A stretch of DNA of 64,000 nucleotides from Pseudomonadota bacterium (GTDB lineage Bacteria; Pseudomonadota; Alphaproteobacteria; Rhodospirillales; Magnetospirillaceae). Numbering within the stretch: the stretch's first letter is position 1; each line of letters begins with the position of its first letter. A program made the translations under genes and the position numbers. Location: assembly GCA_021847015.1 (NCBI GenBank), contig JAJZVW010000006.1:62001-126000 (forward strand). Reading direction: 5' to 3'. The notes below the pieces were generated by a model that saw only the letters and a program-made list of their open reading frames with translations, had not been told where the DNA came from and searched no databases. Shown here in pieces: positions 19,088-60,663 of this stretch.

Positions 19088-19176
19088 CAGCGATCCTCGT
19101 TATGCCCCGTTGACGATGTCATCCCGAGCCTTTCGGCTCGGGATGACAACCACAAACACATTCATGAGAACCGGTG
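19088..19176. repeat. Short MITE-like copy between gltX and gltA
   Basis: The left end CAGCGATCCTCGTTATGC (19088-19105) matches 15 of 18 bases of the perfect terminal repeat at 60261. The right end (CATGAGAACCGGTG, to 19176) is the inverted counterpart. The core is a perfect 13-bp hairpin, GTCATCCCGAGCC-TTTC-GGCTCGGGATGAC (19118-19147). The 9 bases outside each end, GGCGTCGGC and GCCATCGGC, agree at 7 of 9 positions, which fits a decayed target duplication. Size is 89 bp. Confidence 0.6.
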
Positions 19177-19196
19177 GCCATCGGCCAACGGTTCTC
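19166..19196 (-). terminator. Hairpin just after gltX
   Basis: Read on the minus strand, the sequence 2 bases past the gltX stop folds as GAGAACCG-T-TGGCC, loop GAT, GGCCA-C-CGGTTCTC: a 13-bp stem with one mismatch, followed by ATGAATGTGTTTG. It overlaps the right terminus of the MITE-like copy, so the terminator seems to have been built partly from the inserted element. Function as a terminator is inferred; the T-run is poor. Confidence 0.5.
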
Positions 19197-36015: not shown

Positions 36016-36161
36016 CAGCCGGCCGTTCCGGCGTCTCTTTCGCTGTCATCCCGAGCCGACGGCGAGGGATCTTTCCGGCACTTTCGCGTGAAAGATCCCT
36101 CAGTCGCTCCGCTCCCTCGGGATGGCACCATGCCCTGATGCCGCGATAACGAGAATCGCTG
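36016..36161. repeat. MITE-like copy upstream of the nuo operon
   Basis: From the core (36045) to the right end the text is nearly identical, in opposite orientation, to the element at 60261-60404, including TGATGCCGC before the terminus GATAACGAGAATCGCTG (to 36161; consensus GCATAATGAGAACCGCTG). The left terminus has decayed: only CAGC and TTTCGCTG are still recognisable between 36016 and 36044. Length is 146 bp, against 144 for the intact copy. No target duplication is visible, so this is an old insertion. It starts 19 bp after tRNA-Val. Confidence 0.7.
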
Positions 36162-58302: not shown

Positions 58303-58398
58303 ATGCGGTTCTCATTGCGCCCGCTGCCGGGAAATGTCATCCCCCGCCTTCGGCTCGGGATGACAGGATTCCCTGACGCCGCATGATGAGAACCGCTG
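58303..58398. repeat. Short MITE-like copy upstream of the glycosyltransferase
   Basis: Left terminus ATGCGGTTCTCATTGCGC (14 of 18 matches to the consensus end) and right terminus GCATGATGAGAACCGCTG (17 of 18). The core is a hairpin, GTCATCCCCCGCC-TTC-GGCTCGGGATGAC (58336-58364), and CCTGACGCC before the right end matches the intact copy. Length is 96 bp. The flanking 9-mers (CATGTCCGG, CCGGACGGT) do not match, so any target duplication is lost. The rest of the 490-bp gap holds the operator above and nothing else clear. Confidence 0.7.
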
Positions 58399-60108: not shown

Positions 60109-60123
60109 CGGCGTCCCAACGTC

Positions 60124-60149
60124 GTCATCCCCGCGAAAGCGGGGATCCA
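60124..60149 (+). repeat. GTCATCCCCGCG palindromic repeat, left copy
   Basis: GTCATCCCCGCGAAAGCGGGGATCCA at 60124-60149 is a hairpin (CCCCGC with GCGGGG around a short loop) of a type widespread in proteobacterial genomes. It lies 12 bp past the stop of the broken nuclease gene and is inverted relative to the copy at 60638-60663. These are the only two copies I found in the window. Confidence 0.85.
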
Positions 60150-60161
60150 TCGGTGGCACGG

Positions 60162-60623
60162 TCAACGCAAGATGTCATTATACAGGTCACGCCATTGCGG
60201 ATTGTCACACTGGACCAGTGCGATCTTCCACACCCTGCGCCATTTCTTGATTTGCTTCTCCAGCGGTTCTCATTATGCGGCATCAGGGAATGTTGTCATC
60301 CCGAGGGAGCGGAGCGACTGAGGGATCCTTCACGCGAAAGTGCCGGAAAGATCCCTCGCCGTCGGCTCGGGATGACAGCGAAAAATGCATAATGAGAACC
60401 GCTGTTGCTTCTCGCGAAGAATGGCATCCGGCATGGTTTCGTGGAATTCGACGTAAACCAGCGTATGAATGCCATATTTCTTGGTAAATCCGTCGATGGC
60501 ATCCGATTTGTGTTCCCAAGTTCGGCGGGCGATATCGCTGGTCACGCCGACGTACAGCGTGCCATTGGGTTTACCGGCAAGAACGTAGACACATGGCCGT
60601 CCCATGGACGCGCACTCTACCAT
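60162..60623 (-). pseudogene. GIY-YIG endonuclease gene interrupted by a MITE
   Basis: The 5' part (60623 to 60405) encodes MVECASMGRPCVYVLAGKPN and continues with GTLYVGVTSDIARRTWEHK, a small GIY-YIG domain of the YhbQ type, up to AILREKQ. The 3' part (60260 to 60162) encodes EKQIKKWRRVWKIALVQCDN and then PQWRDLYNDILR and a stop, exactly the expected C-terminus. Between them sits the 144-bp element plus a 9-bp duplication. Removing these 153 bp restores one 102-residue frame. As it stands, translation runs into the element and diverges after EKQQ. An ATG at 60605 (MGRPCVYVL) is an alternative start. Confidence 0.9.
60261..60404. mobile_element. Intact 144-bp MITE with 18-bp terminal inverted repeats
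   Basis: Termini CAGCGGTTCTCATTATGC (60261-60278) and GCATAATGAGAACCGCTG (60387-60404) are perfect inverse complements. The flanking 9-mers TTGCTTCTC (60252-60260 and 60405-60413) are identical, a target-site duplication. The inside is the palindromic core of this genome's dispersed repeat (GTCATCCCGAG...CTCGGGATGAC). It has no coding capacity, so transposition must depend on a transposase encoded elsewhere. Its perfect ends and duplication make it the youngest copy in the window. Confidence 0.93.
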
Positions 60624-60637
60624 TTCCACCGGCGTGT

Positions 60638-60663
60638 GGATCCCCGCTTGCGCGGGGATGACG
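60638..60663 (-). repeat. GTCATCCCCGCG palindromic repeat, right copy
   Basis: On the minus strand this reads GTCATCCCCGCGCAAGCGGGGATCCA, ending 14 bp before the nuclease start at 60623. With the copy at 60124-60149 it brackets the GIY-YIG gene in inverted orientation; similarity continues a few bases inward (TCGGTGG on one side, CCGGTGG on the other). Confidence 0.85.

Follow-up and report, generated by a model that had tools for sequence, protein, structure and literature searches.

A MITE insertion splits a small GIY-YIG nuclease gene flanked by CGTC-type REP palindromes

The window analysed here is a stretch of 64,000 nucleotides of a Magnetospirillaceae genome (positions 62001-126000 of contig C10; the genome comprises 3.587 Mb in 77 contigs). 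A MITE has jumped into a small GIY-YIG nuclease gene of this window, generating a 9-bp target duplication and depriving the encoded protein of its last 27 residues. The interrupted gene lies between two CGTC-type REP palindromes, and this arrangement, a small GIY-YIG nuclease gene between two such REPs, is a widespread unit; what is shown here is the association. We propose a two-layer account, in which the MITE, mobilised in trans by an ISNCY-like transposase, split a gene that is itself part of a REP-nuclease unit. This account is likely as a whole; the cleavage of REPs by the nuclease and the movement of REPs are inferred.

The MITE and the interrupted GIY-YIG gene

The MITE occupies positions 60261..60404 (no strand assigned) and is a multicopy element of 144 bp; the folding energy of its DNA is -44.8 kcal/mol (z -7.96). 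Its perfect 18-bp terminal inverted repeats, located at 60261..60278 (+ strand) and 60387..60404 (- strand), both match CAGCGGTTCTCATTATGC with 0 mismatches. The element is bounded by two copies of the 9-bp target duplication TTGCTTCTC at 60252..60260 and 60405..60413 (no strand). Allowing up to 3 mismatches, the window contains 5 matches to CAGCGGTTCTCATTATGC, where 0.02 would be expected. Across the genome, the 18-mer end was found at up to 2 mismatches 81 times in the forward and 86 times in the reverse orientation (167 in total), whereas its reversed control gave 0 forward and 0 reverse matches.

Near-full copies of the MITE number at least 40 in the genome, their identity being 95-100% over at least 126 of the 144 bases. 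This number is a lower bound, as 40 of the 290 first-look candidates were scored. The best 30 copies were extracted for the tally of duplications. Exact target duplications of 9 bp were present in 20 of them and of 10 bp in two more; imperfect duplications matched at 8 of 9 positions in two copies and at 7 of 9 in one. No duplication was detected in five copies, three of which have a cut end. The element meets the criteria of a MITE, being short, having terminal inverted repeats, no coding capacity, a consistent duplication length, and many recent copies. Several subfamilies can be distinguished, which have their ends in common and unlike interiors. No match to the MITE was found in the plasmid collection, and the three Rfam hits around the insertion site are all far under the gathering scores. 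A frame check of 22 MITE sites with duplications was uninformative, given the GC-rich genome, and was left out of the evidence.

Older or partial copies with imperfect ends can be noted in the window at 58303-58398, 19088-19180, 36144-36161, and 1-20. Elsewhere, MITE copies at contig ends (the starts of L002 and L013 and the end of L025) are joined to other repeated sequence, and these joins look as though other insertion sequences had landed in MITE copies.

The gene split by the MITE is located at 60162..60623 on the minus strand, with the stop codon at 60162-60164. When the flanks are joined and the MITE together with one duplicate is omitted, a continuous frame of 102 residues is obtained, which ends in KKWRRVWKIALVQCDNPQWRDLYNDILR and belongs to the Pfam GIY-YIG family PF01541; the part of the gene preceding the insertion matches this family with E = 8.4e-10 and 39.3 bits (cut-off 22.6). 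With the MITE left in place, the frame reads 24 foreign residues beyond REKQ and then stops, so that the last 27 residues of the protein are removed. Since the closest relatives align only from residue 3-9, the true start is possibly not at 60623 but at the second Met (60605), which would give a protein of 96 residues. Of 199 genomes of the order, 65 encode relatives of the protein (E ≤ 1e-8), with identity of up to 70%. The protein has no match in the phage collection, and a sequence search against the PDB gave weak hits, the best being 1zg2 (E 0.021). The lost 27 residues include an Asn conserved in 74 of 75 relatives; hence, the product of the split gene is probably inactive, although the loss of activity is inferred.

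The first-pass annotation, made from the sequence alone, had described a 144-bp MITE at 60261-60404 with perfect 18-bp ends and a 9-bp duplication, whose deletion together with one duplicate restores a 102-residue GIY-YIG frame. Both claims held, with the reservation about the start codon given above. Its reading of the palindrome as an insertion is supported by the paired ends and 9-bp duplications at other genomic sites, and the search for paired 18-bp termini elsewhere, which it had proposed, was positive. The intact orthologous gene that it had suggested looking for was confirmed only in part: uninterrupted relatives with 62-70% identity exist in other genera, but the same chromosomal place has not been shown for them, and the genus of the window is represented by a single genome in the collection. 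We consider the insertion of the MITE into the GIY-YIG gene close to certain.

In its shortness, terminal inverted repeats, and target duplication, the element resembles the bacterial MITEs RUP, NEMIS, ERIC, and Nezha (PMC3733652), with which it also shares many near-identical copies and the absence of an internal transposase gene. It differs from them in its CAGCGGTTCTCATTATGC ends, 9-bp duplications, and a core that is similar to a pair of REPs.

Probable source of the mobilising transposase

Searches for the terminal inverted repeats covered 297 genomes of the order and gave matches in 27 of them, some of which encode the C-terminus of a transposase at contig ends. A 66-aa piece of this transposase has matches in 11 of the 297 genomes and led to the locus L160 in genome G286, which belongs to the same family as the window's genome. 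Nine transposase loci were examined for end pairs adjoining a 9-bp duplication. CAGC ends with 9-of-9 duplications were found at three of them (L160, Calothrix L187, and Saccharobesus L190), and no such end pairs were found at the other six. The L160 element is 1431 bp long, has the ends CAGCAATTCTAAATTTGG and CAGCGGTTCTCACTATGG and the duplication CTACGGCAT (9/9), and encodes an ISNCY-like transposase. The Calothrix element (1865 bp) is accompanied by the duplication GAAATATAC, and the Saccharobesus element (1662 bp) by the duplication TAAATAAAG; the ends of the latter have in common only CAGCAATT. Thus, the insertion sequence with matching ends that the first-pass annotation had proposed to search for is represented by elements with related ends and a 9-bp duplication in a genome of the same family and in two named plasmids.

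The ISNCY-like transposase scores 22.8 bits against the Pfam DDE_Tnp_1 family, just under the cut-off of 23, and has a homologue with 39% identity annotated as ISNCY family (Gloeothece WP_013335080.1). An ISNCY-like ISMae2 transposase has been mentioned in Microcystis (PMC11448079). Two smaller elements also carry these ends: a 533-bp derivative in Rhodospira (L106), which has ends in common with the MITE and the 9-bp duplication CCCTGGGGT, and a 132-bp MITE in Leptolyngbya (L112), whose 9-bp duplication is CGATGATTG. The MITE ends are therefore widespread. The loci L109 and L113, considered as possible autonomous elements, were rejected in the absence of a matching end pair with a duplication.

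The ISNCY-like L160 and Calothrix L187 elements have the end motif CAGC(G/A)(G/A)TTCTCA and 9-bp duplications, like the window MITE. Unlike these insertion sequences, the MITE lacks a transposase, and its genome did not yield one either. A search of this genome with the 66-aa query, for which the matches in 11 of 297 genomes serve as a control, and with two other queries lacking a positive control, whose empty outcome carries little weight, revealed nothing convincing. For an ISNCY-like transposase in the same genome, there was one chance-level hit (E 0.4, 33% identity); further results were no hit at E ≤ 1 and no hit with a six-sequence profile. No such transposase was found in the assembly, and the inference of the mobilising enzyme therefore rests on other genomes.

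An alternative explanation is that another DDE transposase, not ISNCY-like and having similar ends and 9-bp duplications, moved the MITE. In its favour is the assembly itself, without a detectable ISNCY-like transposase. However, full-length ISNCY-like elements share both the end motif and the 9-bp duplications with the MITE, and one of them resides in a genome of the same family; we regard this alternative as very unlikely. The action of an ISNCY-like enzyme on the MITE in trans is the likely explanation, although the enzyme and the movement in trans are both inferred.

REP palindromes around GIY-YIG genes

The GIY-YIG gene of the window is bracketed by two CGTC REPs with their tags directed outward. 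The REP on the 3' side (CGTCATCCCCGCGAAAGCGGGGATCCA) is located at 60123..60149 on the plus strand (C10:122123-122149), and the REP on the 5' side (CGTCATCCCCGCGCAAGCGGGGATCCA, inverted) at 60637..60663 on the minus strand (C10:122637-122663), both with 0 mismatches. On both sides, the form is CGTC-ATCCCCGC(G/A)NNA..GCGGGGAT-CCA, which meets the criteria of CGTC REPs (stem of 8-9 bp, loop of 4-5 bases). These two are the only CGTC-tagged palindromes that the detector found in 64 kb; its four rows for the window correspond to them and to a palindrome at 19118-19147 that has a TGTC tag and was read from both strands. The first-pass annotation missed the REPs on both sides of the gene, the right one being outside its coordinates, as well as the likeness of the MITE core to a repeat array around another GIY-YIG gene of the same genome.

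At up to 2 mismatches, 12 CGTC REPs were found in the genome of the window and none with the reversed control; five of the 12 adjoin GIY-YIG genes and seven are located elsewhere. The REPs at C37:28795 and C63:16100 are 29 and 21 bp away from GIY-YIG fragments, respectively, and the REP at C7:81 flanks another GIY-YIG copy. The ends of contigs C37 and C63 share 97 identical bases, so the two fragments are probably parts of one gene. Joining these contig ends yields a unit with CAGGGC..CGAACCCAGGTT ends of 20 bp and with ATCGTCGGGC as its 10-bp duplication; at the start of C7, a second copy is bounded in the same way. These ends and the duplication indicate that, in the C37/C63/C7 lineage, the unit was moved within a TIR element; since it lies wholly inside this element, the gene may be cargo in that lineage.

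A fourth GIY-YIG gene (C52:650-913) is located inside a tandem array of palindromic units of about 91 bp (L271 1-1114). The MITE core (60294..60378, no strand) consists of two TGTC-ATCCC units in inverted orientation, in a REPIN-like manner, and its identity to the C52 array units is 77-80% over 85-88 bp where they are fully aligned. The same kind of REP-pair core is present in a second MITE-like family with CAGGGCTCCGAACTCAGGTT ends (L010 1529-1727, L042, and L052), one lineage of which, found at the contig ends L240/L267/L400, encloses a GIY-YIG gene with REPs and has a 10-bp duplication. Given the similarity to the C52 array and the similar core in the second family, the MITE is read as carrying a REP pair of the GIY-YIG type. 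The sequence TGTCATCCCGAG has 28 matches at up to 1 mismatch on both strands of the 64-kb window; the REP-like core is abundant there.

In the order, 93 of 103 GIY-YIG places were covered (30 automatic, 60 fetched loci), and ten of the weakest were omitted. Of 92 places examined with the narrow CGTC detector, 23 have REPs on either side at a distance of no more than 250 bp, 15 on one side only, and 54 on neither. The density of canonical REPs differs about 40-fold: 71 in 46 kb near GIY-YIG genes versus 37 in 977 kb far from them. Many of the places without a REP according to this detector bear other palindromes at the gene ends; they only looked empty because the detector is narrow. A sequence-blind detector (stem of at least 7, loop of 3-6, within 100 bp of the gene) was applied with mechanically defined ORFs of at least 80 aa as controls, which were not matched for intergenic length. 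In the order, a palindrome was found at the 5' side of 55 of 84 GIY-YIG genes, at the 3' side of 54, and at both sides of 38, whereas the corresponding numbers for the control ORFs were 58, 67, and 6 of 659.

In the phylum sample, at least 104 of 398 genomes have a match, and 28 new loci and 59 fetched places, chosen from the top downwards and not covering all matches, were considered. Both-sided palindromes flank 40 of 91 GIY-YIG genes versus 5 of 328 controls (Fisher p 4.6e-25). Four genes were counted twice in the overlapping loci L314/L341 and L318/L344, and without them the proportion is 37/87. Both-sided palindromes are absent from 46 of 84 genes in the order and from 51 of 91 in the phylum sample; when the two samples are pooled, 76 of 171 distinct genes have a palindrome pair. 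Despite the detector being sequence-blind, a CGTC-type tag, in which GTC adjoins the stem, is present on both palindromes in 59 of the 76 pairs. The tags are both directed outward in 40 of these 59 pairs, in the same direction in 15 (12 + 3), and both inward in four.

One could suppose that the palindromes serve a small gene as terminators or as stabilisers of its mRNA and are unrelated to mobility. Control ORFs do have palindromes more often at the 3' side (67/659) than at the 5' side (58/659), as is typical of terminators. However, terminators are not expected upstream of a start codon, and in GIY-YIG genes the two sides are occupied with similar frequency (5' in 55 and 3' in 54 of 84). In addition, the CGTC tag, the outward orientation, and the matched stems remain unexplained; we regard this supposition as very unlikely.

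The stems to the left and right of the same gene are similar, with a mean identity of 0.873; in 2000 shuffles, the mean was 0.563 and the largest value 0.628. Perfect left-right matches number 43 versus a shuffled mean of 5.7 and a maximum of 13. Possibly, a part of this agreement reflects the REP type peculiar to each genome, and for this reason the palindrome class was compared with the protein tree. The classes were a loop of 4 (44 genes) and a loop of 5 (21 genes), with 10 genes unclassed. On the tree of GIY-YIG proteins, the class changes 6 times, compared with a shuffled mean of 18.1 and 0 of 500 shuffles as low, while the host family changes 45 times. When the class was shuffled within the five host families that hold both classes, the mean was 11.2 changes and the minimum was 7, with 0 of 500 shuffles as low as 6. 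The tree is poorly resolved: it is based on 95 columns, 9 of its 72 inner branches are starred, and one row is very long.

It is also conceivable that GIY-YIG genes and REPs both gather in roomy intergenic regions and that their proximity is indirect. The controls, which were unmatched for intergenic length, leave room for this, as do the REPs that are not near such a gene (37 canonical REPs in 977 kb; 7 of 12 in the genome of the window). Against it are the roughly 40-fold difference in density, the matched stems, the orientation bias, and the fact that the class tracks the protein clade within host families; we regard it as very unlikely.

The REP-flanked relatives keep the residues Y (73/73), Y (74/75), R (75/75), H (74/75), E (74/75), and N (74/75), which we take to be the GIY-YIG active site. 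This bears on another rival reading, according to which the GIY-YIG gene is passive cargo and the units are moved by another enzyme, for example, by DDE transposases acting on outer terminal repeats. The TIR ends and the 10-bp duplication that bound the C37/C63 unit and the C7 copy speak for it, as do MITE-like elements (L010, L042, and L052) that have related ends and do not contain the gene. However, outer ends were seen only for the C37/C63/C7 lineage, REP pairs accompany GIY-YIG genes across many families, the palindrome class tracks the protein clade within host families, and the active-site residues are conserved. We regard passive cargo as unlikely.

In the plasmid collection, 33 records match the GIY-YIG protein, and both-sided palindromes were found in six of the eight inspected. 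In Azospirillum lipoferum 4B p3, the REP-flanked gene is located between sufB and sufC (L401 1492-1785). The others are Novosphingobium aromaticivorans pNL2, Neisseria gonorrhoeae, Aeromonas caviae, Rhizobium CIAT894, and Sinorhizobium meliloti pSymB, the palindromes of the latter having a CCTC-like tag. The Photobacterium record has a palindrome on one side only, 173 bp away. The single locus viewed outside Pseudomonadota, that of Planktothrix, has no palindromes. Within Pseudomonadota, the statistics give good support for the REP frame around GIY-YIG genes.

Traces of movement of the units were also considered. At a locus of genus g45, the gene and its REP pairs are present in the genomes G120, G142, and G187 and absent from G222, G135, and G096; the flanks in the latter three show 83-94% identity, and the gap is occupied by dissimilar DNA with a length of about 90-700 bp. 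Presence and absence can be seen in this empty-site comparison, with no clean junction. In 12 of 82 REP-GIY-REP units, versus 0.9 expected, direct repeats with a length of 10 bp or more lie outside the outer REPs; their positions are irregular, and several of them belong to additional REPs (L221, L332, and others). A uniform target duplication around these 82 units was not found. The g45 locus and the excess of direct repeats hint at a possible movement of the units and do not prove transposition.

A putative nuclease partner of CGTC REPs

The proposed account has two layers. A non-autonomous DDE-type MITE inserted into the GIY-YIG gene, duplicating 9 bp and removing the last 27 residues; by inference, this took place under the action of an ISNCY-like transposase in trans that is no longer seen in the assembly. 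The split gene belongs, as far as the association shows, to a widespread unit in which CGTC-type REPs bracket a small gene for a GIY-YIG nuclease. The nuclease may recognise hairpins of its own REP type and nick or cut there, and the REPs, REP pairs, and the gene may then spread through repair or copying at REP sites, a role resembling the one ascribed to RAYT transposases at GTAG REPs. The MITE would thus have silenced one such nuclease, and its core would be the REP pair of another GIY-YIG lineage of the genome.

CGTC REPs were reported in 2013 as apparently having no dedicated transposase (PMC3733652). These REPs, including the neisserial dRS3, are similar to the GIY-YIG palindromes in their CGTC/TGTC tag, stem of 7-9 bp, loop of 4-5 bases, and CCA tail. 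The palindromes found here bracket GIY-YIG genes, whereas the cited paper on CGTC REPs does not contain the word GIY-YIG. The RAYT-REP systems (REPtrons) have a comparable organisation, a small gene between inverted REPs with the repeat type matched to the gene lineage; in the GIY-YIG units, however, a GIY-YIG nuclease is located between the REPs instead of an HUH tyrosine transposase. The gene of the window shares the GIY-YIG fold and a possible spread through cutting with GIY-YIG homing endonucleases (PMC1564403). Unlike them, it is free-standing, encodes about 100 residues, and lies between palindromes, with no intron or intein seen. No paper joining GIY-YIG with REP, RAYT, dRS3, or palindromes was found by title in the open-access literature searched, and to our knowledge no paper states a link between a GIY-YIG nuclease and REPs.

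The GIY-YIG nuclease is a strong candidate for the partner of CGTC REPs. That it acts on them is inferred and could equally well prove true or false. A bolder reading, for which the evidence is just as evenly balanced, is that CGTC REPs and REPINs have their dedicated enzymes in small free-standing GIY-YIG nucleases, in parallel to RAYTs, and that MITEs pick up REP pairs. In this reading, the enzyme and the hairpin stem would co-evolve, the units would move within and between proteobacterial genomes, and MITEs would spread REP pairs.

By itself, the MITE is one more bacterial MITE family of a familiar type, and greater significance would attach to the REP-flanked nuclease. With a candidate enzyme named and many natural enzyme/stem pairs available, the question of the CGTC REP partner becomes testable. 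If the proposal is true, a role would be found for a common family whose annotation goes no further than GIY-YIG nuclease family protein.
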